A stretch of 64,000 nt of DNA from Nocardiopsis suaedae (lineage in GTDB: Bacteria; Actinomycetota; Actinomycetes; Streptosporangiales; Streptosporangiaceae). The notes beneath the pieces were generated by a model. That model was not told the origin of the DNA. It worked only from the letters and a program-made list of their open reading frames with translations, and did not search any database. Below are positions 8,699 to 24,334 of the stretch, piece after piece. Position numbers and translations under genes: made by a program. Location of the stretch: assembly GCF_027706745.1 (NCBI RefSeq), contig NZ_JAQFWP010000001.1, positions 186,001-250,000 on the forward strand. Reading direction: 5' to 3'. The number at the start of each line of letters is the position of its first letter. The first letter of the stretch is position 1.

Positions 8699-9100
8699 CT
8701 ACTCCGGCACCGGCTCGGCCAGGACGCGCTGGGCGATCCCGAAGGCCTTGTTGGCGGCGGGGACCCCGCAGTACACGGCGGCCTGCAGGAACACCTCGCG
8801 GATCTCCTCCTCGCTCAGGCCGTTGCGCACCGCCGCGCGGACGTGCATGGCCAGTTCCTCCCAGTGGCCTTTGGCGACCATGGCCGTCAGCACCATGCAG
8901 CTCCGCGTCCTGCGGTCCAGCACGCCGTTCGTCCAGACCTCGCCCCACGCGTAGCGGGTGATGAAGTCCTGGAACGGCGCGGTGAACTCGCTCTTCCCGG
9001 CCTCGGCGCGGTCGACGTGGGCGTCGCCCAGCACCTCGCGCCGGACCCGCATGCCCGCGGCGCGGCGCTCATCGTCGGTCCGGTCGGTCCGCTCGGTCAC
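8699..9100 (-). CDS. pcaC: 4-Carboxymuconolactone decarboxylase
   Basis: 133 residues, the normal length of stand-alone PcaC. 'RREVLGDAHVDRAEAGKSEFTAPFQDFITRYAWGEVWTNGVLDRRTRSCMVLTAMVAKGHWEELAMHVRAA' is the all-helical CMD fold, with 'EEIREVFLQAAVYCGVPAAN' after it. It decarboxylates gamma-carboxymuconolactone to 3-oxoadipate enol-lactone. In many actinobacteria PcaC is fused to PcaD (PcaL); here the two are separate, with pcaC 36 bases behind pcaD. It is the last gene of the pca run. Confidence 0.95.
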   Translation of the reverse strand: MTERTDRTDDERRAAGMRVRREVLGDAHVDRAEAGKSEFTAPFQDFITRYAWGEVWTNGVLDRRTRSCMVLTAMVAKGHWEELAMHVRAAVRNGLSEEEIREVFLQAAVYCGVPAANKAFGIAQRVLAEPVPE

Positions 9101-9928: not shown

Positions 9929-10431
9929 GGGGGTACCTCCGTTCATCGGTTCGTGTCCAGTGGCCGAGAGAGCCGTGGCCACCGTTCGCATCCTGCGCCG
10001 TCGGTCCCCGGCGCCGGTGGACGCGGGCCCGGGGCGGGCGTGTCCCGCCGTGGCCTCTGTTGGAGTGGTGTGATTCCCGTGCGGCCGGGTCGACCCGCCG
10101 GTCACGGCCCGGGACGGCCGATGACGTGACCGGCGCCCCGTCCTTCGGCGCCCCGCCCTTCGGCGAGGCGGCCTCCGGCCGTTCGCCGAGGCGGTCGCGA
10201 CCGGTGAAGGTTCCACCACGCCACCCTCCAACGGACACCATCCCGCCGCCCCGTTGAGGGACATCCGCAGGACCGGCGGCCCACGGGCCCACCAGGTGGC
10301 CCGCCTCCCTCTCTGTCGCTCTCTGACGCCGCGTTGTCGCTTGCATTCCGCTGACCCGCCGTGCGGCCGGGGACCGGTCGCACGGGCGCGGGCGCCGTTC
10401 GACGGGGAGGCGTCGCCGCCGCCACGGCCTC
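9929..10431. other. Non-coding gap between pcaB and pcaD
   Basis: No convincing reading frame on either strand and no copy of the GTTCG-N5-AGAAC element. It presumably contains the 3' end of the upper pca message and the pcaDC leader. Confidence 0.4.
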
Positions 10432-11766
10432 CTACCCGGGCCCTTCCGGGCGGGTGCGGTAGATGTCCAGCGCCGCGTCGATGAACGCGTCGGCCGCACC
10501 CAGGTACGCCGTCGGGTCCAACAGCTCCCGGATCCGCTCAGGGGTGCGGCGCCCGGCCAGCCTCCGGTCGAGGACCGCGGCCAGGTCCGCCCCCGGCTCG
10601 GCCGCCTCCCGGCAGGCCTCCCGCACCAGGTCGTGGGCGTCCAGCCGGCCCAGCTCGGGGGCCAGATCGGAGGCCACCCGCTCGGCCATCGGCAGCCCGC
10701 CCGACAGCTCCAGGTTGGCGCGCATCCGCTCCGGGTCCACCTCCAGCCGTTCCAGGGCGTCGGCCGTCCACGCCGCCGCCGACCCGGTCGCGCACAGCAG
10801 CCGGTCGAAGGACTGCCACTCGGCCTGCCAGGCCCCCGCCGCGCGCTGGTGCGGCTGGTGGATCTGCGCGGTGAGCAGCGTCGCGACCAGCCCCGGCACC
10901 TGTTCGGCGCAGGCCCGCGCCGACACCGCCGCCACCGGGTTGCGCTTGTGCGGCATCGCCGATGACCCGCCGACCCCCGCACCGGCCGCCTCGGCGACCT
11001 CGCCGACCTCGGTCTGCGCCAGCAGCACCAGGTCCCCGGAGACCTTGCCGCAGGCCGCCGCCGTCCGCGCCGCCGCCGACGCCACCGCCGTCAGCGGGCC
11101 CCGGTCGGTGTGCCACGGCAGGGCCGGGCGGGCCAGCCCCAGCCGGTCGGCGAAGGCGGCGACGACCGCCGGGCCGTGGTCGCCCAGCGAGGCCAGTGTG
11201 CCCGCCGCACCGCCCAACTGCGCCGGGGTGCGCTCCAGCTCGGTGCGCAAGGCGTCGGCCGCCCCCGTCACCGCGTGCAACCACCCGGCCGCGACCAGGC
11301 CGAACGTGGTCGGCAGGGCCTGTTGGAGCAGGGTGCGGCCCGGCATCACCGTCCGCCGGTGCTCCTCGGCCAGCCCGGCCAGCGCGCACGCGGCCCGGTC
11401 GGCCTCGGCGAGGACGGCGCCACCGGCGCGGCGGGCCACCAGCACCGCGGCGGTGTCCATGACGTCCTGGCTGGTCGCCCCCTGGTGCACGTGCCGCGCC
11501 GCGGACCCCTCCACGGCCCGGGTCAGCTCCCGGACCAGCGGGACGACGGGGTTGGCCGAGTCGGCGGCGCCCCGGGCCGCGGCCTCCGCGTCCACGTGGC
11601 CGTCCCTGCGGGCGGCCTCCACGGCCTCGGCGTCGCCGGGTGCGGCCAGGCCGGCCCGGACGAGCGCGTGCACCAGCGCGGACTCGGCGTCGAGCATCGC
11701 CCGGAGCCAGGCCTGCTCGCCGGTCTCCCCCGCGACGGCGCCGCGGGCGAACATGTCCCCGAACAC
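10432..11766 (-). CDS. pcaB: 3-Carboxy-cis,cis-muconate cycloisomerase
   Basis: 444 residues of the fumarase/aspartase superfamily, with signature 'GSSAMPHKRNP' and the upstream block 'HVHQGATSQDVMDTAAVLVARR' (TS...D motif). It cyclises beta-carboxymuconate, the product of the dioxygenase, to gamma-carboxymuconolactone. Start is GTG 11766 with GAGGAG 5 bases before; an open stretch of about 23 codons continues upstream but has no ribosome site. A gap of 232 bases separates it from pcaG on the same strand. Confidence 0.95.
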   Translation of the reverse strand: MFGDMFARGAVAGETGEQAWLRAMLDAESALVHALVRAGLAAPGDAEAVEAARRDGHVDAEAAARGAADSANPVVPLVRELTRAVEGSAARHVHQGATSQDVMDTAAVLVARRAGGAVLAEADRAACALAGLAEEHRRTVMPGRTLLQQALPTTFGLVAAGWLHAVTGAADALRTELERTPAQLGGAAGTLASLGDHGPAVVAAFADRLGLARPALPWHTDRGPLTAVASAAARTAAACGKVSGDLVLLAQTEVGEVAEAAGAGVGGSSAMPHKRNPVAAVSARACAEQVPGLVATLLTAQIHQPHQRAAGAWQAEWQSFDRLLCATGSAAAWTADALERLEVDPERMRANLELSGGLPMAERVASDLAPELGRLDAHDLVREACREAAEPGADLAAVLDRRLAGRRTPERIRELLDPTAYLGAADAFIDAALDIYRTRPEGPG

Positions 11767-11998
11767 GGCTGCTCCTCCTCGATCGTGGCCGGTCGTCGGC
11801 AGGTGGCCGACCGGTGGTCGTCCTGGTCGCATCATCGCCGGGCGCTCCGCCGCCGGACCAGGGGTGTTCCGGGCCTTCTCCGGAAAAGGCGGCCGCGGGC
11901 GGGACGGCCCGGTTCCGAGAAGCGGTCGGCGGCCGCTCCCCGTAAGGCGCCGGGCCGCGCCACGCCCGCCGGGGCGCGTCCGCCCCCTCCCGCCCGGC

Positions 11999-12589
11999 TC
12001 AGATGTCGAAGAACACCGTCTCCCCCTCCCCTTGGAGGCGGATGTCGAAGCGGTAGCCGTCCTCCGCCGCGACCGCCACCAGGGTCGCGCGCTCCTCGGG
12101 GTCGGTGACGGACGACAGCACCGGGTCCTGCCCGTTCGCCTCCTCCTCGTCGGGGAAGTACAGCCGCGTCACCGTCCGGTGCAGCATCCCGCGCGCGAAG
12201 ACCGACACGTCGATGTGCGGCGCCTGGAGGAGCGGTGGGCCCTGCGGCCCCGGCCCCGGCCCCGGTACCGGACCCGGCAGCGGACCCGGCTTGAGCGTGT
12301 ACACGCCCCACCGGCCCTCGGCGTCGGTCGGGCACCGGCCGAACCCCCGGAACCCGTCATGGCGCACCGCGCCCCGCGGGTCGTCCGGGTGGTCGAACCC
12401 GCCCCCCGGGTCGGCCTGCCACGTCTCGATCAGCGCGTCCGGGACCGGCGCCCCGGCGCCGTCGGTGACCGTTCCCCGCAGCCACACGCCGCCCGGCGCG
12501 CCCTCCCGGAGCGCGTAGGGCCCATCCGGCCACGGCAGCCCGATGTGCAGGAAGGGTCCGACGGTCTGCGAGGGTGTCGTGGGTTCCAT
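11999..12589 (-). CDS. pcaG: Protocatechuate 3,4-dioxygenase alpha subunit
   Basis: 196 residues. 'TPSQTVGPFLHIGL' is the typical start, followed by the intradiol-dioxygenase barrel 'RGTVTDGAGAPVPDALIETWQADPGG' and 'APHIDVSVFARGMLHRTVTRLYFPDE'. The alpha subunit lacks the full set of iron ligands found in PcaH and completes the active-site pocket of the alpha-beta pair. An unusual Pro-Gly repeat (about residues 105-120) sits before the 'PPLLQAPHI' segment. Its ATG overlaps the pcaH stop as TGATG. Confidence 0.95.
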   Translation of the reverse strand: MEPTTPSQTVGPFLHIGLPWPDGPYALREGAPGGVWLRGTVTDGAGAPVPDALIETWQADPGGGFDHPDDPRGAVRHDGFRGFGRCPTDAEGRWGVYTLKPGPLPGPVPGPGPGPQGPPLLQAPHIDVSVFARGMLHRTVTRLYFPDEEEANGQDPVLSSVTDPEERATLVAVAAEDGYRFDIRLQGEGETVFFDI

Positions 12590-13362
12590 CAGTCGTCGTC
12601 CTCCAGCGCCAGCTCGTGCTCGAACACCGTCGACTCGCGCCCGCGCAGCACGATGTCCCACGTGTACGCCAGCGCCCACTCCGGTTGGGTGCGGGCGTGG
12701 TCGTAGCGCGCCACCAGCCGTTCGCGGGCCTGCGGGTCGGGGATGGAGTTCCACATGGGGTCCTGGAAGAACAGCGGGTCGCCGGGGAAGTACATCTGCG
12801 TCACCAGCCGCTGGGTGAACGCCCTCCCGAACAGGGAGAAGTGGATGTGCGCGGGCCGCCAGGCGTTGTCGTGGTTCTTCCACGGGTAGGCGCCGGGGCG
12901 CACCGTGGTGAAGGAGTACCGCCCGTCGGCATCGGTGACCGTCCGGCCCACCCCGGTGAAGTTCGGGTCGAGCGGGCACGGCCAATTGTCGCCCTTGTGC
13001 CGGTACCGGCCCCCGGCGTTGGCCTGCCAGACCTCCACGAGGGTGTGCGGCACCGGGCGCCCGTCGGCGTCCAGCACCCGCCCCTGCACGGTGATCCGCT
13101 GGCCCTGGGGCTCGCCGTCGTGCTGGCGGGTCAGGTCGTGGTCCAGCGGTCCGACCCGGTCCTCGCCCAGCAGCGGCCCGGTGATCTCGGTCAGCAGGTG
13201 CGGCAGCACCTTCAGCGGTCGCTGCGGGTGGCGCAGCGCGGTACTGCGGTACCCGGGGTAGTCCAGCGGCGGGTGAACACCGGGGTCCCGGCGGTAGCCC
13301 GGGACGGCGGCGGTGTCCTGGCCCGCGTCCGTGCCCTGTCCGGCAGCCGTGTCCTGGCCCAT
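12589..13362 (-). CDS. pcaH: Protocatechuate 3,4-dioxygenase beta subunit
   Basis: 257 residues. The four non-haem Fe(III) ligands can be placed: Tyr120 (GGRYRHK), Tyr159 (GAYPW), His172 and His174 (PAHIHFSLFG). Their spacing (39, 13 and 2) matches Tyr408/Tyr447/His460/His462 of the Pseudomonas enzyme. It opens the ring of protocatechuate with O2 to give 3-carboxy-cis,cis-muconate. The first 20 residues are a Gly/Gln/Asp/Thr-rich leader not seen in most homologues. ATG 13362 has AGAGGAG upstream; pcaF ends 14 bases before. Confidence 0.97.
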   Translation of the reverse strand: MGQDTAAGQGTDAGQDTAAVPGYRRDPGVHPPLDYPGYRSTALRHPQRPLKVLPHLLTEITGPLLGEDRVGPLDHDLTRQHDGEPQGQRITVQGRVLDADGRPVPHTLVEVWQANAGGRYRHKGDNWPCPLDPNFTGVGRTVTDADGRYSFTTVRPGAYPWKNHDNAWRPAHIHFSLFGRAFTQRLVTQMYFPGDPLFFQDPMWNSIPDPQARERLVARYDHARTQPEWALAYTWDIVLRGRESTVFEHELALEDDD

Positions 13363-13376
13363 GGTCCTGGCTCCTC

Positions 13377-14552
13377 TCACGCGTGCAGCACGGCGGCCAG
13401 GCCCTGCCCGACGCCGATGCAGATGGCGGCCAGCCCCCACCCGCCGCCGCGGCGGCGCAGCTCGTGGGCGAGCGAGCCCAGGATGCGCGCCCCGGAGGCG
13501 CCCAGCGGGTGGCCGATGGCGATGGCCCCGCCGTTGGGGTTGACGATGTCCGGGTCCAGCCCGTCCCAGCTGCGCACGCACGCCAGGGCCTGGGCGGCGA
13601 ACGCCTCGTTGAGCTCGACCGCCGCCAGGTCGCCCCAGCCGATCCCGGCCCGGCGGAGCGCGGTCTCGGCGGCCGCGACCGGGCCCACGCCGAACCGGTT
13701 CGGCTCGACGGCGGCCACGCCCCGGCTGACGATGCGCGCCAGCGGCTCGCGCCCCGCCGCCCGCGCCGCCTCGGCGTCGCCGACCAGCACCGCGGCGGCG
13801 CCGTCGTTGAGCGGGGAGGCGTTGCCCGCGGTGATGGTGCCGTCGGTGCGGAAGGCGGGCTTGAGCCCGGCCAGCTTCTCGGCGGAGGTCTCGCGGACGC
13901 TCTCGTCGCGCTCCAGCTCCACCCCGGGGACGTCCACCACCTCGTCGGCGAAGACGCCCTTGGCCCAGGCGGCGGCCGCGCGCTCGTGGCTGCGCAGCGC
14001 GAACGCGTCCTGCTCCTCGCGTGCGATCCCGAACTCGTCCGCGATCTGCTCGGTGCACTCGCCCAGGGACGCCGTCCAGGCGGGCTCCATTCGCGGGTTG
14101 ACCATCCGCCAGCCCAGGGTGGTGGAGTGCAGGGTCCCGTGCCCGGCGGGGAAGCCCTTCTCGGGCTTGGTCATCACCCACGGGGCGCGGCTCATCGACT
14201 CCACGCCCCCGGCGACCACGAGGGACGCGTCACCCACGGCCACCGCCCGGTTGGCGGCGATGACCGCCTCCAGCCCCGACCCGCACAGCCGGTTCAGGGT
14301 GGCCCCGGGGACGCTGACGGGCAGCCCGGCCAGGAGCGCCGCCATCCGCGCCACGTTGCGGTTGTCCTCCCCGGCGCCGTTGGCGTCGCCGAAGTAGACG
14401 TCGTCGACGGCGGCGGGGTCGAGCCCGGGCGAGCGCGCGGTGAGGCCGGAGACGGCGTGGGCGGCCAGGTCGTCGGGGCGGACGCCGGACAGGGCGCCGC
14501 CGTAGCGCCCGAACGGGGTGCGGACGGCGTCGATGACGAACACATCGTTCAC
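13377..14552 (-). CDS. pcaF: 3-Oxoadipyl-CoA thiolase
   Basis: 391 residues. Thiolase landmarks are complete: nucleophilic Cys90 in 'LNRLCGSGLEA', 'NEAFAAQALA', 'NPNGGAIAIGHPLGASGAR' with the catalytic His, and a C-terminal 'CIGVGQG' with the second Cys. It splits 3-oxoadipyl-CoA into succinyl-CoA and acetyl-CoA, the last step of the pathway. 'VYFGDANGAGEDNRNVARM' near residue 60 is the pattern seen in PcaF-type thiolases. It lies between pcaJ and pcaH on the same strand. Confidence 0.95.
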   Translation of the reverse strand: MNDVFVIDAVRTPFGRYGGALSGVRPDDLAAHAVSGLTARSPGLDPAAVDDVYFGDANGAGEDNRNVARMAALLAGLPVSVPGATLNRLCGSGLEAVIAANRAVAVGDASLVVAGGVESMSRAPWVMTKPEKGFPAGHGTLHSTTLGWRMVNPRMEPAWTASLGECTEQIADEFGIAREEQDAFALRSHERAAAAWAKGVFADEVVDVPGVELERDESVRETSAEKLAGLKPAFRTDGTITAGNASPLNDGAAAVLVGDAEAARAAGREPLARIVSRGVAAVEPNRFGVGPVAAAETALRRAGIGWGDLAAVELNEAFAAQALACVRSWDGLDPDIVNPNGGAIAIGHPLGASGARILGSLAHELRRRGGGWGLAAICIGVGQGLAAVLHA

Positions 14553-14601: not shown

Positions 14602-15384
14602 TCAGCCCCGCCCGGTGAGCGAGCGCAGCACCGCCAGCTCGTGCGGTTCGGGGGCGGGGGTGGTGGCCAGGTCCGGGGCGACGGCCAGGTCCCACCCGGT
14701 GGCCTCGCGCGCCTGTTCGGCGGTGACGCCCGGGTGCACGGAGGTGAGCACGAGCTCGCGGGTGGCGGGGTCGGGCTCCAGGACCCCCAGGTCGGTGATG
14801 ACGCGCACCGGCCCGGCGCCGCGCAGCCCCAGGCGCTCCCGGTCGCCGGGGCCGCCGCCGTGGCCGACCGAGGTGGTGAAGTCGACCCGTTCGACGAAGG
14901 TGCGGGGGCTCTGCCGCACGATCACGATGACCCGCCCGCAGGAGGCGGCGATCTCGGGGGCACCGCCGGCGCCGGGAAGGCGCACCGCGGGGGCGTCGTA
15001 GTCGCCGATGGCGGTGGTGTTGATGTTGCCGAACCGGTCGATCTGGGCGGCGCCGAGGAAGCCGGTGTCGATCCGCCCGGCCTGCAGCCAGTAGTTGAAC
15101 ACCTCGGTGACCGGGACGACGCTGTCGGCGGTCTCGGCCAGTTCACCGTCGCCGATGGACAGCGGGAGCGTGTCGGGGGAGGCGCCCAGGGTGCCCGACT
15201 CGTAGACCATCCACAGGTCCGGGGCGTGCGTGCGGCGGGCCAGGTTGGCGGCGGTGCTGGGCAGGCCGATGCCGACGAAGCAGGAGGAGCCGTCGGCCAG
15301 GGCGCGGGCGGCGGTGACCGTCATGACCTCGTCGGCGTCGGCCGTGGAGGGGGAGGGGGAGAGCGGGGAAGCGGTGGCGGTCAT
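14602..15384 (-). CDS. pcaJ: 3-Oxoadipate CoA-transferase beta subunit
   Basis: 260 residues, family I CoA-transferase. The catalytic glutamate is Glu62 in 'VYESGTLG'; 'GIGLPSTAANLARR' and 'GFLGAAQIDRFGNINTT' are family blocks. With PcaI it moves CoA from succinyl-CoA to 3-oxoadipate. The ATG overlaps the pcaI stop (ATGA), as expected for subunits made in equal amounts. Confidence 0.92.
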   Translation of the reverse strand: MTATASPLSPSPSTADADEVMTVTAARALADGSSCFVGIGLPSTAANLARRTHAPDLWMVYESGTLGASPDTLPLSIGDGELAETADSVVPVTEVFNYWLQAGRIDTGFLGAAQIDRFGNINTTAIGDYDAPAVRLPGAGGAPEIAASCGRVIVIVRQSPRTFVERVDFTTSVGHGGGPGDRERLGLRGAGPVRVITDLGVLEPDPATRELVLTSVHPGVTAEQAREATGWDLAVAPDLATTPAPEPHELAVLRSLTGRG

Positions 15385-16241
15385 GCGGTCTGTTCCTCCC
15401 TGTCCTCGCCGGGCGCCCGGTCCGGGGTCCGGGGGCCGCCCGCGGCGCCGAACACCTCGTCCCGGAGCCAGGCCGTGAAGCGGTCGCGGTCCCGGCCGAC
15501 GGCGTCCCAGGCGCGGTAGGCGTCATTGTCGCGGACGTAGTACCCGTGGGCATAGGAGGGGCGCGCCCCTCCGGGGACGGGGGAGACCGCGCTGACCACC
15601 CGTGAGGGCAGGACGACCTGGCCGGGGACCGGCTCCAGCTCGTCGACGACCTCCTCGACGGTGACCAGGGCGCGGTCGGCGGCCAGCACCGCCTCCTTCT
15701 GCACCCCGGTGATGCCCCACATCTGCACGTTGCCGGAGCGGTCGGCGCGCTGGGCGTGCACGATCGCCACGTCGGGGTTGAGCGCGGGCACCGCGGCCAG
15801 CTCCTCCCCGGTGAAGGGGCAGGTGATGGGCTTGATGGTGGGGGTGCGGCCGACCAGGTCGGTGCCGGCGTAGCCGCGCAGCACGGCGAAGGGCAGCCCG
15901 GCGGCCCCGGCGGCGTAGCGGTTGGCCATCCCGGCGTGGCTGTGCTCCTCCAGCTCCAGGGGGCGGGGCCAGCCGTTGACGACGGCGTCGCGGAAGCGGT
16001 GCAGCGAGCCCACCCCGGGGTTGCCGCCCCAGGAGAAGACGAGCCGGCGGGCGCACCCGGCGCCGATCATGCGGTCGTAGACGATGTCGGGGGTCATCCG
16101 CACCAGGGTCAGGTCACGCCGCCCCTGCCGGATGACCTCGTGGCCGGCCTCCACCGGGATGAGGTGGGTGAACCCCTCCATGGCGACCGTGTCCCCGTCG
16201 CGGACGAGCTCGGCCACGGCCCGGTCCAACGGCAGGATCAT
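15381..16241 (-). CDS. pcaI: 3-Oxoadipate CoA-transferase alpha subunit
   Basis: 286 residues. 'LVRDGDTVAMEGFTHLIPVEAGHEVIRQ' and 'RLVFSWGGNPGVGSLHRFRDAV' are typical of family I CoA-transferase alpha subunits of the PcaI/glutaconate-like branch, which are longer than short bacterial PcaI proteins. The neighbours pcaJ and pcaF fix the role. It is the first gene of the pca operon; ATG 16241 has GAGAGGGGG upstream, and a GTTCG-N5-AGAAC palindrome lies 33-47 bases before the start. Confidence 0.92.
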   Translation of the reverse strand: MILPLDRAVAELVRDGDTVAMEGFTHLIPVEAGHEVIRQGRRDLTLVRMTPDIVYDRMIGAGCARRLVFSWGGNPGVGSLHRFRDAVVNGWPRPLELEEHSHAGMANRYAAGAAGLPFAVLRGYAGTDLVGRTPTIKPITCPFTGEELAAVPALNPDVAIVHAQRADRSGNVQMWGITGVQKEAVLAADRALVTVEEVVDELEPVPGQVVLPSRVVSAVSPVPGGARPSYAHGYYVRDNDAYRAWDAVGRDRDRFTAWLRDEVFGAAGGPRTPDRAPGEDREEQTA

Positions 16242-16273
16242 CGCGCCCCCTCTCGTTCGGATAGCGCATCATT

Positions 16274-16288
16274 GTTCTCTTTGCGAAC
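16274..16288. promoter_or_regulatory. Candidate PcaR operator at pcaI
   Basis: Read on the minus strand: GTTCGCAAAGAGAAC. It shares all ten outer bases with the sites at 17599 and 17745. A further half-site (GTTCG at 16256-16260, plus strand) lies on the pcaI side, giving three half-sites, as known for IclR-type pca/pob regulators. Confidence 0.65.
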
Positions 16289-16519
16289 GCCTTGGACGTT
16301 ACTGGCGCCCGGACCGTCGGTCAAGGCGGGAGGGGGGCGATGGCGCTGTCGGGCGGCGGGCGTGTGCGTGGTCACTGGGCAGGGCGGCGACGGCGGGATC
16401 GGGGCGGTTCCCCGGCCCTGCCTGCCGTCCATTGGGTCCCTCGCGGTCCGGGCGGGCGGGGCGGCTCGGCGGGCGGGGCGCCCGCGTCCGTGGCGGCCGC
16501 CAGGCATGGGGCCGTTCGT

Positions 16520-16577
16520 CGAGATCCGCCTGGTAGTTGGTATTCGGGCGTGGATTCCAACAACCAGGCGCATCTCG
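16520..16577. repeat. Long imperfect hairpin between pcaR and pcaI
   Basis: Arms 16520-16540 and 16557-16577 pair at 19 of 21 positions and extend inward with mismatches to a loop of about 6 bases. It lies downstream of pcaR, about 165 bases past the stop, and upstream of the pcaI promoter. It may be a terminator for pcaR or a structured leader. The rest of 16289-16743 shows no gene. Confidence 0.6.
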
Positions 16578-16743
16578 GCGCGGGCCGCTGTCCGTTCCTT
16601 CCGGGGCCGGGCTCCCGGAGCAGTGCGGTGTCCAGGATGTCCGATTCTGGAGGGGGCTGGAGTCCGCCGATCCGCTGCCCGGCTGGAACCCGTGAGCGGG
16701 GGCCTGCTCGGCCGCCCCTCCTCCCGGCGGCGGGTGCCGGGCG

Positions 16744-17574
16744 CTACGCCCGTGCCGGGCCCGAGGTGCGGGAGGCGATCTCCAGGTCGGCTTCGACACG
16801 GGCGACCGTGGCCAGCAGCGACGGCAGGATCTCGGTGCGCAGGCCGCGCACCGGCATGCGGCTGGCCTGGACCGACACGTTGGCGGCGGCCACGACCCGG
16901 CCCTCGCGGTCGCGGATCGGGGCGGCCACCGACCGCAGGCCCTCCTCCAGCTCCTGGTCCACGATGGCCCATCCCTGGGCGCGCACCCGGTCCAGTTCCG
17001 TGCGCAGGGCCGCGGCGTCGGCGACGGTGTGCGCGGTGAGCGCGGGCACCTCCAGCCGGGCCAGGTAGGCCTCCAGCTCGGCGTCGGGCCGCCCGGCCAG
17101 CAGCACCCGGCCCATGGAGGTCACGCAGGCCGGGAAGCGCGTCCCGACGCTGATCGCGACCGTCATGATCCGGGAGGTCGCGGCGCGCGCCACGTACACC
17201 ACGTCGTCGCCGTCCAGGACGGAGACCGACGACGACTCGCGGACCTCGGCGGCCAGCGCCTGCAGGTGCGGCTGGGCCACCTCGGGCAGCCCCGCCGCGG
17301 ACAGGTACGCGTACCCCAGCTCCAGCACGCGCGGGGTGAGCGCGAACAGGCGGCCGTCGAAGCGCACGTACCCCAGGTCGGCCAGGGTGAGCAGGAAGCG
17401 GCGGGCGGCCGCGCGGGTCAGCCCGGTGGCGCGGGCGACCTCGCTCAGCGTCATCTCCGGCCGCTCGGCGGAGAAGGCCCGGACGACCCCGAGGCCGCGC
17501 TCCAGGGACTGGACGAAGTGGTCGCCGCGCGGCCCGGGTGCGCCGGCGCCGGCGTCGGAGTCGGTGTCGGACAT
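16744..17574 (-). CDS. pcaR: IclR-family regulator, PcaR/PcaU type
   Basis: 276 residues. The N-terminal winged helix is 'QSLERGLGVVRAFSAERPEMTLSEVARATGLTRAAARRFLLTLADLGYV' (about residues 21-75). The C-terminal effector domain has 'LPEVAQPHLQALAAEVRESSSVSVLDGDDVVYVARA', 'SVGTRFPACVTSMGRVLLAG' and 'VDQELEEGLRSVAAPI', the pattern of PcaR/PcaU/PobR. The expected effector is 3-oxoadipate or protocatechuate. It is followed, after a 502-base gap, by the pca operon on the same strand, and a palindrome of the same class lies upstream of its own start. Family is sure; the exact effector is inferred. Confidence 0.9.
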   Translation of the reverse strand: MSDTDSDAGAGAPGPRGDHFVQSLERGLGVVRAFSAERPEMTLSEVARATGLTRAAARRFLLTLADLGYVRFDGRLFALTPRVLELGYAYLSAAGLPEVAQPHLQALAAEVRESSSVSVLDGDDVVYVARAATSRIMTVAISVGTRFPACVTSMGRVLLAGRPDAELEAYLARLEVPALTAHTVADAAALRTELDRVRAQGWAIVDQELEEGLRSVAAPIRDREGRVVAAANVSVQASRMPVRGLRTEILPSLLATVARVEADLEIASRTSGPARA

Positions 17575-17598
17575 GCGCTCCCTTTCGGTCCCGGGAAT

Positions 17599-17613
17599 GT
17601 TCTCATACCGAAC
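17599..17613. promoter_or_regulatory. Candidate PcaR operator at pcaR
   Basis: Read on the minus strand: GTTCGGTATGAGAAC, 25 bases before the pcaR start. It shares all ten outer bases (GTTCG and AGAAC) with the other two sites and implies autoregulation. Confidence 0.6.
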
Positions 17614-17718
17614 AGGGTGGGCGCGGGCGGGTGGGCGAGGAGGGGGGCATAGGTCCGGTGGTCCGATCTCGCTACGGATTCACCGGCTGGTCACCGTCGG
17701 TGAGGCCGCCGTACGGGG

Positions 17719-17747
17719 TTGACGCTGGCCGGGGCGTCAATTACGTT
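17719..17747 (+). promoter_or_regulatory. Sigma70-like promoter of the importer operon
   Basis: TTGACG, a 17-base spacer, then TACGTT. The -10 overlaps the GTTCG-N5-AGAAC element at 17745-17759, a position suited to repression. Confidence 0.5.
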
Positions 17748-17759
17748 CGCCAGCAGAAC
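17745..17759. promoter_or_regulatory. Candidate PcaR operator at the importer operon
   Basis: GTTCGCCAGCAGAAC, 80 bases before the first binding-protein start, with another GTTCG half-site at 17764-17768. It is the third copy of the element found at pcaI and pcaR. Confidence 0.6.
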
Positions 17760-17838
17760 GGCCGTTCGCAAGACGCACAAACCCCCCTCTCGGGTGGGCG
17801 CCCCGGCGCCCGCCGCACCCCCTGCGAATGGAGAGCCG

Positions 17839-18801
17839 ATGCGTCACAGACTCCTGTCCGCCGCCGCGGCCGCGGCGGCGCTCGCCCTCGCCGCGAGCGC
17901 CTGCGGCGGCGGAGAGGACGACGGGGACGGAAGGCGCACCATCACGGTCGGCGCCATCCCCATCGTCGACCTCGCCCCCCTGCACCTCGCCGTCGACCAG
18001 GGCTTCTTCGCCGACCGCGGGATCGAGGCGGAGATCCGCAACATGAGCGGCGGCGCCCAGGCCGTCCCCAGCGTGGCCAGCGGCGACCTCGACTTCGCCT
18101 TCGGCAACGTCACCTCCCTGCTGCTCGCGCGCGACGCCGGACTGCCCCTGAAGGTCGTGGCCAACGGCGCGGCCACCACCGGTGAACAGGGCGCCGACGT
18201 GAGCGCCGTCGTCGTCCCCGAGGGCAGCCCGATCACCTCGGCCGAGGACCTGGAGGGCGCCACCGTCGCCGTGAACAACCTGGAGAACATCGGCGACACC
18301 ACCGTGCGCAACTCCGTCCGCAAGGCCGGCGGCGACCCCACCCGGGTCGGGTTCACCGAACTCCCGTTCCCCGACATGCCCGCCGCGTTGGAGAACGAGG
18401 AGGTCGACGCCGCCTGGATGGCCGAACCCTTCCTGACCACCTCCTTGGAGGCGGGCGCCACCGAGGTCGCCTCGAATTTCGTCGACGCCCACCCGAAGCT
18501 GACCATGGCGACCTACTTCACCTCCGAGCAGGTCCTGTCCGAGGACCCGGAGCTGGCCGCCGACTTCACCGCCGCCATGGAGGAGGGCCTGGCCTACGCC
18601 GAGGACAACCCCGACGAAGTGCGGCGCATCCTCGGCGAGTACACCGAGATCGCCCCGGCCGTCATCGAGGAGATCCGGCTGCCCTCGTTCCCGACCGACA
18701 TCAACCGCGAGTCCATCCGCACCATCGCGGACCTCATGGAGGAGGACGGCCTGGTGGAGCAGACCCCCGACGTCGACGCGCTGTTCGCGGACGCCGGATG
18801 A
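17839..18801 (+). CDS. NitT/TauT-type ABC substrate-binding lipoprotein, copy 1
   Basis: 320 residues. The signal peptide ends in ASACGGG (lipidated Cys21 or close). 'ITVGAIPIVDLAPLHLAVDQGFFADRGIEAEI' is the SsuA/THI5-like opening; 'GDLDFAFGNVTSLLLARDAGLPLKVV' and 'VNNLENIGDTTVRNSVRKAGGDP' follow. Proteins of this class bind small organic anions such as taurine, sulfonates, aromatic carboxylates or thiamine precursors. Start ATG 17839 has GGAGAG upstream. It is the first gene of an operon with two permeases, an ATPase, a benzoylformate decarboxylase and an aldehyde dehydrogenase, so an aryl-glyoxylate or mandelate-like ligand is likely (inference). Confidence 0.88.
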   Translation: MRHRLLSAAAAAAALALAASACGGGEDDGDGRRTITVGAIPIVDLAPLHLAVDQGFFADRGIEAEIRNMSGGAQAVPSVASGDLDFAFGNVTSLLLARDAGLPLKVVANGAATTGEQGADVSAVVVPEGSPITSAEDLEGATVAVNNLENIGDTTVRNSVRKAGGDPTRVGFTELPFPDMPAALENEEVDAAWMAEPFLTTSLEAGATEVASNFVDAHPKLTMATYFTSEQVLSEDPELAADFTAAMEEGLAYAEDNPDEVRRILGEYTEIAPAVIEEIRLPSFPTDINRESIRTIADLMEEDGLVEQTPDVDALFADAG

Positions 18802-18866
18802 CCGCCGCCCCCGCCCCCGCCGCCGAGGCCCCGCGCCCGCCGGTGCCCCCTGCGAATGGAGACCCC
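18798..18866 (+). repeat. Duplication junction with relic of permease start
   Basis: Directly after copy 1 the sequence ATGACCGCCGCCCCCGCC repeats the first bases of the permease gene at 19829, encoding the same nine residues (MTAAPAPAA). It then switches to CCCTGCGAATGGAGA, the bases that precede both binding-protein starts. This is the seam of a tandem duplication with a unit of about 1,030 bp. Confidence 0.8.
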
Positions 18867-19832
18867 ATGCGTCACAGACTTCTCCCCGCGGCCGCGTCCG
18901 CGGCGGCGCTGATCCTGGCCGCGAGCGCCTGCGGCGGCGACGGCGGCGACGACGGGGGCGGCACCCGCTCCATCACGGTCGGGGCCATCCCCATCGTCGA
19001 CGTCGCGCCGCTCCACCTCGCCGTCGACCAGGGCTTCTTCGCCGACCGCGGCCTCGACGTCGAGATCCAGAACACCACCGGCGGCGCCCAGGCCATTCCC
19101 GGCGTCGCCAGCGGCGACTTCGACTTCGCCTTCGGCAACGTCACCTCCCTGCTCGTGGCCCGCGACGCCGGGCTTCCCATGAAGGTCGTGGCCAACGGCG
19201 CGGCCACCACCGGCGAGCAGGGCAACGACTTCGGCGCCGTCGTCGTCCCCGAGGGCAGTCCCATCACCTCCGCCGAGGACCTGGAGGGCGCCACCGTCGC
19301 CGTGAACAACCTGGAGAACATCGGCGACACCACCGTGCGCAACTCCGTCCGCAAGGCCGGCGGCGACCCCGCCCAGGTCGAGTTCATGGAGCTGGCCCTC
19401 CCCGACATGCCCCCCGCCCTGGAGAAGGAGGAGATCGACGCCGCCTGGGTGGTCGAGCCCTTCCTGACCACCTCCTTGGAGGCGGGCGCCACCGAGGTCG
19501 CCTCGAATTTCGTCGACGCCCACCCGAAGCTCACCATCGCCGCCTACTTCACCTCTGAACAACTCCTGTCCGAGGCCCCGGAGCTGGCCGCCGACTTCGC
19601 CTCCGCCATGGAGGAGGGCCTGGCCTACGCCCAGAGCAACCCCGAGGAGGTGCGGCGCATCGTCGGCGAGTACACCGAGATCGATCCGACCCTCATCGAG
19701 GAGATCCGGCTGCCCCTGTTCCCACCCGAGACCGACCGCGAGTCGGTGAGCACCATCGCCGACCTCATGGAGCAGGACGGCCTGGTGGAGCAGACCCCCG
19801 ACGTCGACGCGCTGTTCGCGGACGCCGGATGA
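18867..19832 (+). CDS. NitT/TauT-type ABC substrate-binding lipoprotein, copy 2
   Basis: 321 residues, clearly a recent duplicate of the gene before it: long blocks are identical in protein and DNA (for example 'TVAVNNLENIGDTTVRNSVRKAGGDP', 'EPFLTTSLEAGATEVASNFVDAHPKLT'). Differences cluster after the lipobox, around 'LDVEIQNTTGGAQAIPG' and near 'MELALPDMPPALEKEEIDAAWVVEPF', so ligand preference may have shifted. It could also be read from ATG 18798 with 23 extra residues, but ATG 18867 has its own GGAGA site and directly begins the signal peptide. Its stop overlaps the permease ATG. Confidence 0.88.
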   Translation: MRHRLLPAAASAAALILAASACGGDGGDDGGGTRSITVGAIPIVDVAPLHLAVDQGFFADRGLDVEIQNTTGGAQAIPGVASGDFDFAFGNVTSLLVARDAGLPMKVVANGAATTGEQGNDFGAVVVPEGSPITSAEDLEGATVAVNNLENIGDTTVRNSVRKAGGDPAQVEFMELALPDMPPALEKEEIDAAWVVEPFLTTSLEAGATEVASNFVDAHPKLTIAAYFTSEQLLSEAPELAADFASAMEEGLAYAQSNPEEVRRIVGEYTEIDPTLIEEIRLPLFPPETDRESVSTIADLMEQDGLVEQTPDVDALFADAG

Positions 19833-20677
19833 CCGCCGCCCCCGCCCCCGCCGCCGGGACCGGCGCGGGGCCCGGCCCCGCCGCCGCGGCCCCGCGCCGC
19901 CCCCTCCCCGGGCGCGACGCCCTCCTGGGGGGCGCGGGCGCCGCCGCCTTCCTGCTGCTGTGGGAGGTGGTCCCGCGCACGCCCGCCGTTTCCGCGGACT
20001 ACCTCCCGCCCGCCTCCGAGGTGCTGGCCACCCTGGCCGAACGGTCGGCGACCGCCGCCTTCTGGAGCGCCGTCGGCGCCACGGTCTCCGCCTGGGCGCT
20101 GGGCCTGGCCATCGCCTTCGCGGCCGCCGTCGCCCTGGGCCTGGTCATCGGGTCGGTCCCCGCGCTGCGCGCCGCCACCGCCTCCACCGTCGAGTTCCTG
20201 CGCCCCATCCCCTCGGTCGCGCTCATCCCGCTGGCGATCCTGATGTACGGCACCGACCTGCGGTCCACACTGCTGCTGGTCGTCTACGCCTCCTTCTGGC
20301 AGATCTACATCCAGGTCCTCTACGGGGTCGCCGACCTCGACCCCGTCGCCGAGCAGACCGCCCGCGCCTACGGGCTGGGCCGGTGGGCCCGCCTGCGCCA
20401 CCTGGTGTGGCCCACCGCCCTGCCCTACCTGCTCACCGGGGTGCGGCTGGGGGCGGCGGTGGCGCTCATCCTCACCATCACCGCCCAGCTCACCATCGGA
20501 ACGCCCGGCCTGGGCCAGGAGATCTCCGTCGCCCAGTCCAGCGGCGCCGCCCCGCTCGTGTACGCCCTGATCGTGGCCACCGGCCTGCTGGGCGTCGCGG
20601 TCAACACCGGGGTCCGCGCGCTGGAGCGCCGACTGCTGCGCTGGCACAGCTCCGTCCGAGGGGAGGCGGCCGTATGA
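19829..20677 (+). CDS. NitT/TauT-type ABC permease 1
   Basis: 282 residues with an Ala/Pro/Gly-rich start and about six membrane helices. The EAA loop is 'VAEQTARAYGLGRWARLRHLVWPTALPYLLTGVRLG', where the ATPase docks. 'PASEVLATLAE' and 'FLRPIPSVALIPLAILMYG' are SsuC/TauC-type landmarks. The stop overlaps the next ATG (ATGA). It forms the membrane channel with permease 2, a heterodimer rather than the usual SsuC/TauC homodimer. Confidence 0.9.
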   Translation: MTAAPAPAAGTGAGPGPAAAAPRRPLPGRDALLGGAGAAAFLLLWEVVPRTPAVSADYLPPASEVLATLAERSATAAFWSAVGATVSAWALGLAIAFAAAVALGLVIGSVPALRAATASTVEFLRPIPSVALIPLAILMYGTDLRSTLLLVVYASFWQIYIQVLYGVADLDPVAEQTARAYGLGRWARLRHLVWPTALPYLLTGVRLGAAVALILTITAQLTIGTPGLGQEISVAQSSGAAPLVYALIVATGLLGVAVNTGVRALERRLLRWHSSVRGEAAV

Positions 20678-21510
20678 GCGCGAACGGGAACGCGGACGGG
20701 AGCGTGAAGGCGACCGCGACCGCGGGCACGGCCGCGCGCACGGGTGCGGCGGCGGCCGGCCGGGTGCTCGGGCTCCCCGCCGTGCTCATCGCCCTGTGGT
20801 GGTGGGCGGCCGCGTCCTCCGGCAGCTTCTTCCTCACCGACCCCGGCACCATCGCCGCCACCTTCGCCGAGGTGTGGGTCTCCGAGCGCTTCTTCACCGA
20901 CGTGCTGCCCAGCGTCGGCCTGCTGCTGACCGGCTACGCCCTGGCCGCCGTCCTCGGCATCGGGCTGGGCGTGCCGCTGGGGCTGTCGACCCGGCTGCGC
21001 GCCGCCGCCGAACCCGTCCTTGAGTTCCTGCGCGCGGTGCCGCCGCCGGTCCTGGTCCCGCTGCTGATGCTGCTGGTGGGCCTGGACGGCTCGATGCGCG
21101 CCGCCGTCGTCGTGTCCGGGTGCGTGTGGCCGGTGCTGCTCAACACGGTGGAGGGGGTGCGCGCCGTCGACCCCGTCCTGGCCGACACCTGCCGCGTCTA
21201 CGGCGTCCGGGGGCGGCGCCGCCTCGGAGTGCTGGTGCTGCGCTCGGCGAGCCCCCAGATCGCGGCCGGTCTGCGCCAGGCCCTGTCCATCGCGATCATC
21301 CTCATGGTCATCAGTGAGATGTTCGCCAGCTCCAGCGGGCTGGGCTACGCCGTGGTCCAGTTCCAGCGGAGCTTCGCCATCCCCGAGATGTGGAGCGGGA
21401 TCGTGCTGCTGGGCCTGCTGGGGGTGGTGCTCTCGGCCGTCTTCGCCCGCGCCGAGCGGCACGCCCTGGCCTGGCACCGCGGACTGCGCGCCGCCTCGCG
21501 CGGGGAATGA
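20674..21510 (+). CDS. NitT/TauT-type ABC permease 2
   Basis: 278 residues, the same family as permease 1: 'LPSVGLLLTGYALAAVLGIGLGVPLGLSTRLRAAAEPVLEFLRAVPPPVLVPLLMLLVG' and EAA loop 'LADTCRVYGVRGRRRLGVLVLRSASPQIAAGLRQ'. About six helices. Sequence divergence from permease 1 argues for an old duplication, unlike the recent binding-protein duplication. It is translationally coupled to the gene before. Confidence 0.9.
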   Translation: MSANGNADGSVKATATAGTAARTGAAAAGRVLGLPAVLIALWWWAAASSGSFFLTDPGTIAATFAEVWVSERFFTDVLPSVGLLLTGYALAAVLGIGLGVPLGLSTRLRAAAEPVLEFLRAVPPPVLVPLLMLLVGLDGSMRAAVVVSGCVWPVLLNTVEGVRAVDPVLADTCRVYGVRGRRRLGVLVLRSASPQIAAGLRQALSIAIILMVISEMFASSSGLGYAVVQFQRSFAIPEMWSGIVLLGLLGVVLSAVFARAERHALAWHRGLRAASRGE

Positions 21511-21524: not shown

Positions 21525-22451
21525 ATGCTCGACGTCGACGGGCTGCGCAAGACCTACAACGGCCGGGGCCGCGATGTGGAGGCCGTGCGCGACCTGACCT
21601 TCCGCCTCGCCGAGGGCGAACTGTCCTGCCTGGTCGGCCCCTCCGGTTGCGGCAAGACGACCCTGCTCAAGTGCGTCTCGGGGCTGATGCGCCCCACGGC
21701 GGGCGCGGTCACGATCGACGGCCGACCGGTCACCGGGCCGCCGCCGGACATGGCCGTGGTGTTCCAGGAGTACGGGCGGAGCCTGTTCCCCTGGCTGACC
21801 GTGCGCGGCAACGTCGAACTGCCCCTCAAGGAGAAGCGGCTGCCCAAGGCCCGCCGCCGCGAGCTGGTGGACGGGGCGCTGGAGGCCGTCGGCCTCGCGC
21901 ACGCCGGGGCCCAGCACCCCTGGGAGCTGTCCGGCGGGATGCAGCAGCGCGTGGCCATCGCCCGCGCCATCGCCTACGAGCCCCGGGTGCTGCTGATGGA
22001 CGAGCCGTTCGCCGCCGTCGACGCGCAGACCCGCGCCGACCTGGAGGACCTGATCCGGGGTCTGTGGCAGCGGTTCTCCATGACGGTCCTTTTCGTCACC
22101 CACGACATCGACGAGGCGGTGTACCTGGGACAGCGGGTGATCGTGCTGTCCGCCTCGCCGACCGTCGTGCAGGACGACGTGCGGGTGGACCTTCCGGAGG
22201 AGCGGGACCAGCTCACCACCCGCTCCGCTCCGCGCTTCGCCGAGCTGCGGGCCCAGGTGTACCGGGAGATCCAGAACGCCAAGAACGGCTCCGGAGGGGG
22301 CGGGGAAGGCGCGGCCGAGGGGGGCGGGACGGCCGGAACCGACGCCTCGGGGACCGGCGCCGACGCCTCGGAGGCCGACGAAGGCGCGGGCGGCGCGGGC
22401 GGCGCCGACGGCCCCGACCGGGCGCCCACCCCGAGCGGGGGCCTGCGGTGA
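21525..22451 (+). CDS. NitT/TauT-type ABC ATP-binding protein
   Basis: 308 residues. Walker A 'GPSGCGKTT', Q-loop 'VFQEYGRSLFPWLTV', signature 'LSGGMQQRVAIARAI', Walker B 'VLLMDEPFAAVD' and the H-loop in 'VTHDIDEAV' are complete. The last 55 or so residues are a Gly/Ala/Asp-rich low-complexity tail with no known role. ATG 21525 has GAGGAAGG upstream; an ATG at 21507 overlapping the permease stop is possible but poorly placed. It overlaps the decarboxylase start as GTGA. Confidence 0.92.
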   Translation: MLDVDGLRKTYNGRGRDVEAVRDLTFRLAEGELSCLVGPSGCGKTTLLKCVSGLMRPTAGAVTIDGRPVTGPPPDMAVVFQEYGRSLFPWLTVRGNVELPLKEKRLPKARRRELVDGALEAVGLAHAGAQHPWELSGGMQQRVAIARAIAYEPRVLLMDEPFAAVDAQTRADLEDLIRGLWQRFSMTVLFVTHDIDEAVYLGQRVIVLSASPTVVQDDVRVDLPEERDQLTTRSAPRFAELRAQVYREIQNAKNGSGGGGEGAAEGGGTAGTDASGTGADASEADEGAGGAGGADGPDRAPTPSGGLR

Positions 22452-24334
22452 GTGTCCCGGATGCGGCCGGAGCCGGAGCCACCGTCCGCGACGCCACCGT
22501 CGCGGTGCTGCGCGCCCACGGGCTCACCACGCTCTTCGCCAACCCCGGCTCCACCGAGGTCGCCTTCCTCGCCGACCTCCCCGACGACCTGCGCTTCGTC
22601 CTGGCCCTGCACGAGGGGTCGGTGGTCGGCATGGCCACCGGATGGGCGATCGCGCGGGGCCGCGCCGCCCTGGTGCAGCTGCACACCACCGCCGGGCTGG
22701 GCAACGCCGTCGGCGCCTTGGCCACCGCACGCGTCAACCGGGCGCCGCTGGTGGTGCTCGTGGGCCAGCAGGACCGCCGCCACCTGGCCCTGGAGCCGTT
22801 CCTGGCCGGGCGGCTGGGCGGGCTGGCGGGGGAGTACCCGGTCTGGACGTGCGAACCGGCGGTCCCGCAGGAGGTCCCCGGGGCGATCGCGCGGGCGCGC
22901 TTCGAGGCCGAGTACGGGCGGGGACCGGCGATCGTGGTCGTGCCGCAGGGCGACTGGTCCGCCCCGGCGGGCGGGGCCGACCACCCCGACGCGGCGCCCG
23001 CCCGCGTGGTGCGGTCGGCCGCCGCCGAGGCGGCCGACGTGGCGCCCCTCGCCGCTCTGCTGGCCGACGCGTCGGCGCCCGCCGTGGTCACGGGCGCGGG
23101 AACGGATTCGGAGGAGGGGTGGGACGCCCTTCGGGCGCTGGCCGAACGCATCGGGGCCCCGGTGTTCCAGGAGAGCTTCGGGGCGCGCGCCGGGTTCCCG
23201 CAGGACCATCCGCTGTACGCGGGGGTGCTGCCCGCCGACCGGGCCGGGCTCCGCGAGCGGCTCGACGGGTGCGACGCCGTGCTCGCGGTGGGGGCGCCGG
23301 TGTTCCGCCAGTACCCCTACACGGAGGGGCCGCTGGTTCCGGAGGGGACGCGCGTGGCGCTGCTGACGGACGACCCGGCCGAGGCGCACCGGGCCCCGGC
23401 CGAGGTGGCGGTGGTAGCGCCCATCGGACCGGCGCTGAGACTCCTCACGGCCCAGGTGCCATCGCGTCCGAAGCGGGGAACGGCGGCCCTCGCCGACGTT
23501 GGGGCCGTCCCCGGCAGCGGCGAGGAGGGCACAGGCGCAGTGGGGGCGCCGACGGACGCCGTGGCGGCCGCCGATGCCGCCGTGGCCCCGGTCCGGGCCG
23601 CATCGCCCCCAGACGAGCCCGGCGCGGAACGCGGGGCCGAAACCGGCCCGGAGGGGCGCGACTCGCGTGGTTCCGAGGTACAGGACACCGTCGGCGACGG
23701 CGCGGATGATGGTGCGAGCGCCCCGCGCACGGGGACACCGGCTGCGGAGCCGGCCGATTCCTCCGCCGTCGGCGGCGTCGCCGCACTCCGGCCCGCGCGT
23801 GTCCTGTCCGCGCTCGCCGCGCGGATGGACCCGGACACCGTCCTCGTCGAGGAGACCCCCTCCAGCCGCCCCGACCTGCACCGCCTCGTTCCCGCCCGGC
23901 GGCCGATGGGGTTCCTGTCCGCCGCCATGGGCGGGCTCGGGTTCGCCCTCCCCGCCGCCACCGGGGTGCGCATGGCCGCGCCGGACCGCCCGGTCGTGGC
24001 GGTCGTGGGCGACGGCTCCTCCCTGTACCAGGTCCAGGCGCTGTGGAGCGCGGCCCGCTACGGAGCCGGAGTCCTGTTCATCGTGCTGTCCAACGGCCGC
24101 TACGCCGTCATGGACCGCCTCGCCGAACGCCACGGCGGCAAGGCGCCCTGGCCCGACTTCTCCCAGGTGTCGGTCGCCGCGCTGGCCCGCGGCCTCGGCT
24201 GTCCCGCCCGTACCGCCACCACCGCCGCCGAGGTCGACGCGGAACTCGACGCGCTCCTGCCCGGACTGCGCGAGCGCACCGAACCGGTCGTCCTCGACGT
24301 CGCCGTGGCCCCCGACCCCGACTTCCGTCCATGA
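22448..24334 (+). CDS. mdlC: Benzoylformate decarboxylase-like ThDP enzyme with internal insert
   Basis: 628 residues; typical enzymes have about 525. Ser35 (NPGSTEV), Glu56 (LHEGSVVG) and His79 (QLHTTAGLGN) align with Ser26, Glu47 and His70 of Pseudomonas benzoylformate decarboxylase at a constant offset. The ThDP/Mg site is 'GDGSSLYQVQALW...VLSNGRY' from about residue 521. His281 of the Pseudomonas enzyme falls on Tyr289 in 'APVFRQYPY'. Residues about 336-442 are a Gly/Ala/Glu/Pro-rich insert between the middle and C-terminal domains. Expected reaction: an aryl glyoxylate to an aryl aldehyde plus CO2. It starts at GTG overlapping the ATPase stop. Confidence 0.85.
   Translation: MSVPDAAGAGATVRDATVAVLRAHGLTTLFANPGSTEVAFLADLPDDLRFVLALHEGSVVGMATGWAIARGRAALVQLHTTAGLGNAVGALATARVNRAPLVVLVGQQDRRHLALEPFLAGRLGGLAGEYPVWTCEPAVPQEVPGAIARARFEAEYGRGPAIVVVPQGDWSAPAGGADHPDAAPARVVRSAAAEAADVAPLAALLADASAPAVVTGAGTDSEEGWDALRALAERIGAPVFQESFGARAGFPQDHPLYAGVLPADRAGLRERLDGCDAVLAVGAPVFRQYPYTEGPLVPEGTRVALLTDDPAEAHRAPAEVAVVAPIGPALRLLTAQVPSRPKRGTAALADVGAVPGSGEEGTGAVGAPTDAVAAADAAVAPVRAASPPDEPGAERGAETGPEGRDSRGSEVQDTVGDGADDGASAPRTGTPAAEPADSSAVGGVAALRPARVLSALAARMDPDTVLVEETPSSRPDLHRLVPARRPMGFLSAAMGGLGFALPAATGVRMAAPDRPVVAVVGDGSSLYQVQALWSAARYGAGVLFIVLSNGRYAVMDRLAERHGGKAPWPDFSQVSVAALARGLGCPARTATTAAEVDAELDALLPGLRERTEPVVLDVAVAPDPDFRP

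Follow-up and report, generated by a model that had tools for sequence, protein, structure and literature searches.

Predicted double operators around pcaR

The window analysed here, a stretch of 64,000 nucleotides from Nocardiopsis suaedae (genome of 6.97 Mb in 139 contigs), contains a gene cluster for the breakdown of protocatechuate, an aromatic acid derived from plants. The genes pcaIJFHGBDC form one run on the minus strand, with pcaR, the regulator gene, lying upstream of them in the same orientation. The plus strand carries, in this order, genes for two substrate-binding proteins (SBP1 and SBP2), two permeases and the ATPase of an ATP-binding cassette (ABC) importer, followed by a decarboxylase and an aldehyde dehydrogenase gene. 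A first-pass annotation of the same DNA had proposed that the IclR-type protein encoded by pcaR coordinates both gene groups through a common palindrome. Sequence comparison supports this proposal: the only regulator of the genome that exceeds the PcaR-family cut-off has predicted sites at pcaI, at its own gene and at the importer operon, and these sites recur in relatives. We put the probability that the link between PcaR, importer and decarboxylase is real at roughly 0.8.

The pcaR gene (16744..17574, minus strand) encodes a full-length match to TIGR02431 (profile positions 2-248 of 248; 333.2 bits, cut-off 284.75) with the domains PF09339 (HTH_IclR) and PF01614 (IclR_C), and its product is 92-96% identical to proteins of Nocardiopsis chromatogenes, N. 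endophytica and N. halophila. Among the 12 IclR-type matches in the genome, PcaR alone exceeds the PcaR/PcaU-family cut-off, the next best reaching 160.4 bits. The stretch LTRAAARRFL, which by comparison with PobR and TtgV probably holds the recognition helix, is kept in 8 of 12 relatives compared, with one to three changes at loci L035, L059, L069 and L081. Solved relatives of PcaR include 8eju, named for the pca regulon.

The palindrome GTTCGNNNNNAGAAC is found in three exact copies in the window, at 16274-16288 (minus strand), 17599-17613 (minus strand) and 17745-17759 (plus strand), a span of less than 1.5 kb, which confirms the three 15-bp sites with ten identical outer bases noted before. 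The composition-based expectation for exact copies is 0.033 per window and 3.6 per genome, compared to 3 and 8 found. When one mismatch is allowed, the shuffled expectation is 1.81 copies, and three or more appear in 28 of 100 shuffled sequences; the three found need no mismatch. Genome-wide, the bare motif carries little information (8 copies vs 3.6 expected); what matters is that three of the copies lie so close together around pcaR.

The extra GTTCG half-sites that had been pointed out next to two of these sites are indeed present, at 16255 and 17764, but each is one half of a second 15-bp inverted repeat. Both operons are thus preceded by a predicted tandem double operator with a 19-bp period: GTTCGgatagCGCAT-catt-GTTCTctttgCGAAC (16255..16288) at pcaI and GTTCGccagcAGAAC-ggcc-GTTCGcaagaCGCAC (17745..17778) at the importer operon. 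Upstream of pcaR lies a single predicted operator, GTTCGGTATGAGAAC on the minus strand (17599..17613), presumably a site of autoregulation, which is identical in 6 of 9 relatives compared. The fourth half-site is weak in the window (CGCAT at pcaI, CGCAC at the importer). At locus L158, read on the locus strand, it is perfect in both the pcaI operator (GTTCGCAGTAAGAAC + GTTCGCTATCCGAAC) and the importer operator (GTTCGTTTTCCGAAC + GTTCAAAAAGCGAAC). Among 11 importer operators of Nocardiopsis and its nearest kin, chosen by hand from loci with a tandem site and counting that of the window, none deviates in the second repeat by more than one base in ten, and this repeat is free of mismatches at the importers of L025, L157 and L158.

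The promoter proposed for the importer operon, TTGACG-17-TACGTT (17719..17747, plus strand; -35 box 17719-17724, -10 box 17742-17747), was likewise confirmed: the last three bases of its -10 box are the first three of the operator, and the layout is conserved in relatives. Of 25 importer operators entered by hand from loci with a tandem site (L035 and L076 were left out, as no position was entered for them), 24 have TTGAC in register and 22 have a TA-type -10 box. On the other side, a putative pcaI promoter, TTGACC-17-TAACGT (16296..16324, minus strand), is a consensus match only, and the pcaI operator starts 7 bp downstream of its -10 box. Because the importer -10 box shares bases with the operator, this arrangement points to repression by occlusion.

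The exact motif, with its eight copies in the whole genome (control 1), includes five outside this cluster, three in called open reading frames (L004, L005, L008) and two outside any (L006, L007). These frames were called by codon composition and their identity was judged by eye; on this basis, none of the five is a pca, van or pob gene. The copy at L007 (G000:C57:44090-44104) lies between divergent reading frames that by eye resemble genes for a TetR-type regulator and an FAD monooxygenase. With one mismatch, the palindrome is found at 180 genome places (control 27), and the single-motif scan was dropped as a test of specificity; because it is too unspecific, the tandem pattern was used in its place. 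This pattern was written from the two window pairs, whose zero mismatches are by construction, so that the information lies in the absence of other matches: none was found within two mismatches in the genome of about 7 Mb. At three mismatches, nine further places (2 in the reversed control) were taken as background. Many copies at unrelated genes, which the first-pass annotation had named as speaking against its idea, are therefore a property of the bare motif but not of its tandem form.

Conservation of the 19-bp spacing

The sites were compared in 80 loci around PcaR relatives, onto which the window proteins were mapped by tblastn. Target regions, 49 in 42 loci, were defined as the DNA between the importer and either pcaR or pcaI, or as that preceding pcaI. 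Repeats with at most two mismatches number 7.3 per kb in targets (129 in 17.6 kb) and 0.64 per kb in the remaining DNA (962 in 1505 kb). Of the pairs at most 45 bp apart, 37 out of 40 in targets are spaced by exactly 19 bp, against 24 out of 59 outside targets, where Rhodococcus pca regions not counted as targets are among them. The 19-bp pair occurs in all nine pcaI regions, in all nine importer-pcaI regions and in 13 of 31 importer-pcaR regions. Altogether it is present in 31 of 49 target regions, when Markov resampling gave a mean of 0.02 and a maximum of 1 in 200 runs, and the period recurs in other families beyond the kin of Nocardiopsis.

A tandem pattern was also scanned in 26 of the 80 genomes that contain these loci, which gave 55 forward and 57 reverse strand-matches (4 and 5 in the reversed control). 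Many places are counted on both strands in these 112 strand-matches, and the places beyond known targets were inspected in part. Two of them were set aside: a match in Rhodococcus erythropolis (L190, G037) holds no pair at the threshold, and the pair in Allonocardiopsis (L191, G013) adjoins genes without an aromatic label from the queries used. In Phytohabitans flavus, a second cluster (L188/L189, G021:C1:4651689-4678730) has five places matching the tandem pattern, together with paralogues of PcaR (two, 53% and 57%) and of pcaI (one, 66%) and with genes resembling vanA and vanB (27-49%); it is perhaps a second aromatic regulon with a similar operator.

In Blastococcus haudaquaticus, pcaR and the importer permease and ATPase genes lie on the contig of L080, and another contig (G040:C2) carries an SBP gene followed directly by a decarboxylase gene. 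This pair is preceded by the tandem operator GTTCAGGAAGGGAAC-ggat-GTTCGCCATGCGAAC, and the layout of the promoter is the same. In the actinobacterial metagenome-assembled genome of L029, a contig (G015:C67) equal in length to that of L029 and with the pcaI tandem sites carries, about 6.7 kb from pcaI, genes in the order SBP, permeases, ATPase, IclR, decarboxylase and dehydrogenase, and this importer set has two tandem pairs of its own. Both arrangements argue that the operator belongs to the importer and decarboxylase genes and is not merely carried along by the neighbourhood of pcaR.

The importer operon and its proposed control by PcaR

The importer is a complete NMT1/TauABC-type set, whose substrate can be proposed from its neighbours. 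SBP1 (17839..18801; PF09084, lipobox by eye) is an NMT1-type substrate-binding lipoprotein, and SBP2 (18798..19832) is its tandem copy with 82% identity. They are followed by permease 1 (19829..20677, PF00528), permease 2 (20674..21510, PF00528) and an ATPase of the nitrate/taurine type (21525..22451; PF00005 and an NCBIfam profile match). Then come a benzoylformate-decarboxylase-like enzyme dependent on thiamine diphosphate (22448..24334; nearest to benzoylformate decarboxylases, also in the Protein Data Bank) and an aromatic aldehyde dehydrogenase (24609..26033), all on the plus strand. Four of the six junctions are 4-bp overlaps, with gaps of 14 bp before the ATPase gene and 274 bp before the dehydrogenase gene. 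The dehydrogenase matches PF00171 (473.7 bits), its GQIC motif holds the catalytic Cys, and its nearest solved relative is the 4-hydroxybenzaldehyde dehydrogenase 9jw2. At L022, one SBP copy only was seen, and the duplication in the window possibly reflects a split specificity. At L153, an additional IclR gene (9243-9818) lies inside the operon, between the ATPase and decarboxylase genes.

Forty of the 80 loci contain an importer ATPase at over 60% identity. These 40 carry vanA in 17 cases (all Streptomyces), pcaH in 15, pobA in 9 and the decarboxylase in 6, and the aldehyde dehydrogenase is on the importer strand in 12; the 40 loci without the ATPase hold pcaH in 29 cases and vanA, dehydrogenase or decarboxylase in none. 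All 17 Streptomyces importer loci have both vanA and vanB nearby, the VanA domain being confirmed in L043. Since the importer thus accompanies vanA, pcaH or the decarboxylase depending on the locus, what these loci have in common would be a protocatechuate-branch phenolic acid. The decarboxylase was not found within 34 of the 40 importer loci, 8 of which span less than 2 kb beyond the ATPase; in seven of the genomes of these 8, the 32 candidates scored include no relative at 1e-50, and one has a 43% relative elsewhere. A search of 39 of the 80 genomes, with 32 candidates scored per genome, gave a decarboxylase match in 12, nine of which have a stretch of at least 62% identity.

The likely mechanism is repression at the double operators. 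What we infer, namely binding by PcaR, the sign of regulation, the ligand and the substrates, would combine as follows. The sites would be operators of the adjacent IclR-type PcaR, one dimer of which would recognise the 15-bp inverted repeat GTTCG-N5-CGAAC. Because the repeats are 19 bp apart, about two helical turns, two dimers could occupy the pca and importer operators next to each other on the same side of the helix. The operator overlaps the -10 box of the importer promoter and at pcaI lies just downstream of the putative -10 box, and the single site at pcaR would provide autoregulation. PcaR would most likely act as a repressor, released by an intermediate of the protocatechuate branch. 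This release would allow joint expression of the ring-cleavage genes pcaIJFHGBDC, of the importer for a phenolic acid of the same branch and of the decarboxylase and aldehyde dehydrogenase, which could convert aryl-glyoxylates such as 4-hydroxybenzoylformate into hydroxybenzoates.

Other explanations differ in what they leave of this scheme. The operators had been likened to the three-half-site operators of PcaU and PobR, which combine one palindrome with one direct-repeat half-site, a type of three-box site known for PcaU, PobR and HmgR (PMC8222616). The weakness of the fourth half-site in the window fits this idea. However, such operators have a third half-site without a partner, and here a fourth is present at both operators and perfect in some relatives; with at most one mismatch in the second repeat of the 11 close importer operators and a 19-bp period in other families, a three-half-site operator is unlikely. 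The sites agree instead with the tandem operators of IclR regulators, in which the centres of two group-1 palindromes lie 18-22 nt apart. A paralogue rather than PcaR could bind the importer site, given that IclR regulators of aromatics have GTNCG-N5-6-CGNAC motifs in common (PMC8222616), that 11 further IclR-type matches exist in the genome and that the second cluster of P. flavus combines PcaR paralogues with similar tandem sites. Yet all three sites flank pcaR and have their ten outer bases in common, and none of the other 11 proteins exceeds 160.4 bits, the cut-off being 284.75, which makes this quite improbable. That the motif reflects chance or codon composition and has no function, as its 180 one-mismatch places and five exact copies elsewhere could suggest, deserves almost no credit in view of the clustering, the 19-bp spacing and the recurrence across families.

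The function of the importer leaves more room. According to the first-pass annotation, the operon takes up and decarboxylates a keto-acid; the importer would then carry the aryl-glyoxylate itself and exist for the decarboxylase. The ATPase and decarboxylase genes do share an operon with a 4-bp overlap, and in Blastococcus an SBP gene stands directly upstream of the decarboxylase gene. The absence of the decarboxylase from most importer loci (6 of 40 have it) and the position of the importer near vanAB in Streptomyces weaken this part of the claim, and we consider keto-acid import rather doubtful, although SBP specificity may differ between clades and a keto-acid may be the substrate in Nocardiopsis.

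Control of the importer and decarboxylase by PcaR through double operators must also be weighed against several contrary observations. No 19-bp pair at the strict threshold was found in 18 importer-pcaR regions, 17 of Streptomyces and that of L080; a looser scan with no shuffled control gave a pair in 12 of the 17 Streptomyces regions, 8 of these with the TTGAC-TAC layout. The conserved regions are not independent, since the loci share descent and the importer adjoins the pca operon. A fully unlinked target was seen in one genome only. At L049, L066 and L073 the importer operator has no clear -10 box. The decarboxylase misses the PRK07092 equivalog cut-off (460.9 vs 493 bits), its match being split by a long insert, and it reads PVFRQYPY where 7orx and 4k9n read PVFRYHQY. 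Tyr thus replaces a His that we take to be His281 of the Pseudomonas putida benzoylformate decarboxylase. Four other chains compared have Tyr at this position; presumably they are engineered variants. The same Tyr was found by a motif script in seven homologues (L021, L022, L025, L032, L154, L157, L158) and His in the more distant L155, and the pattern was unmatched in L027, L030, L153, L156 and L189. Finally, the sign of regulation is uncertain because IclR regulators of aromatics can also activate, as do HbaR1 and VanR1 (PMC9582017).

Other parts of the decarboxylase agree with its family: NPGS, LHEG and LHTT align with NPGS, LQEA/LHEG and LHSA/LHAA of benzoylformate decarboxylases. The aligned Ser, Glu and His in the N-terminal part are presumably the catalytic Ser26, Glu47 and His70. 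A low-complexity insert of about 100 residues (residues ~340-445) lies between the middle and C-terminal domains.

A broader picture can be drawn tentatively, as a possibility that falls short of an even chance. PcaR in Nocardiopsaceae and relatives may run a complete funnel for aryl-C2 compounds (lignin side chains) under 19-bp double operators, made of an importer clade for phenolic acids (in some lineages aryl-glyoxylates), a decarboxylase clade with Tyr for His281 and the aldehyde dehydrogenase. In Streptomyces the importer module would have been re-paired with vanAB, in Nocardiopsaceae and Micromonosporaceae with pca, and in Blastococcus it would have split together with its decarboxylase, the operator-in-promoter design being kept.

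Known systems and further features of the locus

Comparison with passages of the published work identifies the system as one of a known kind, whose additional regulon is informative. The Corynebacterium glutamicum PcaR motif, GTTCGC-N3-GCGAAC (PMC8222616), has the same outer half-sites as here, and PcaR of Rhodococcus opacus, a member of the same regulator family, represses the pca promoters, pcaH and pcaI (PMC9582017). In contrast to these two species, the pca genes are arranged here as a single run in one orientation, and PcaR has presumed additional targets in the divergent NMT1-type importer, the benzoylformate-decarboxylase-like enzyme and the aldehyde dehydrogenase. Tandem sites 18-22 nt apart were predicted for 94 IclR groups (Suvorova and Gelfand 2021, PMC8222616); the architecture is the same here, with centres 19 nt apart, and no difference was seen. 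TauABC subunits are listed there among the co-occurring transporter genes, and the main-text passages do not name this regulon, the regulog supplement lying outside the comparison.

Decarboxylation of 4-hydroxybenzoylformate and of its methoxy form yields 4-hydroxybenzaldehyde and vanillin in Rhodococcus jostii RHA1 (PMC9811514). The corresponding cluster (Wei et al. 2019, cited in PMC9811514 and PMC7760541) likewise has a decarboxylase and an aromatic aldehyde dehydrogenase feeding hydroxybenzoates, with the difference that here these genes follow those of an ABC importer whose operator is of the PcaR type. The first-pass annotation knew of no description of the link, a claim weakened by RNA-seq data from Streptomyces lividans, in which protocatechuate and 4-hydroxybenzoate induce SLYA8N_02125-02135 together with the pca genes (PMC10731712). 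The values tabulated for the two compounds are 5.35/6.61 for a benzoylformate decarboxylase, 6.69/8.36 for a benzaldehyde dehydrogenase and 5.66/7.30 for a symporter. This co-induction of decarboxylase, dehydrogenase and transporter with the pca genes parallels our proposal, but the transporter is an aromatic acid:H+ symporter, unlike the ABC importer here, and the passages on it assign no regulator. Streptomyces scabies no longer breaks down vanillate when SCAB_15301 is deleted, and the IclR gene SCAB_15331 is close by number (PMC6904314). An IclR gene near vanillate demethylase genes (SCAB_15301/15321/15331) is also found in the 17 Streptomyces loci here; vanAB takes the place of pca, and the passages on S. 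scabies make no mention of the importer that these 17 loci hold.

Among the matches listed, no literature title or abstract opening names a PcaR-controlled ABC importer with this decarboxylase. As far as these sources go, each element of the system is already known and its joint control has an experimental parallel in S. lividans. The similar wiring in related actinobacteria, as judged from their genomes, appears to be built from known parts. Which importers take up lignin-derived phenolic acids in actinobacteria is, to our knowledge, poorly established. A conserved operator tying one ABC importer clade to pca, vanAB, dehydrogenase and decarboxylase genes names directly testable candidates, and the operators and their promoters offer a pair for protocatechuate-responsive expression.

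The pca run itself, all on the minus strand, contains four genes over their family cut-offs: pcaH (12589..13386, TIGR02422), pcaG (11999..12598, TIGR02423), pcaD (9137..10033, TIGR02427) and pcaC (8699..9100, TIGR02425), the start codons of the first three being chosen by us. A pcaI-like CoA transferase subunit A (15381..16241) matches PF01144 and falls below the TIGR02429 cut-off. Subunit B, pcaJ-like (14602..15384), was assigned by position and reading by eye, with no NCBIfam match at 1e-15. The pcaF-like 3-oxoadipyl-CoA thiolase (13377..14552) is below the pcaF equivalog cut-off, and the pcaB-like cycloisomerase (10432..11835) has a profile match below cut-off.

A pobA gene was considered as a further PcaR target and rejected. 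The step that it encodes is required after 4-hydroxybenzoate, and a pobA-like gene (449 bits, below the cut-off of 538.7) is present elsewhere in the genome, at C7:87213-88376 (L111, G000:C7). Its locus has only two-mismatch palindromes, at 602 and 2151, with no tandem pair, and the gene is divergent from an IclR-type gene of its own.

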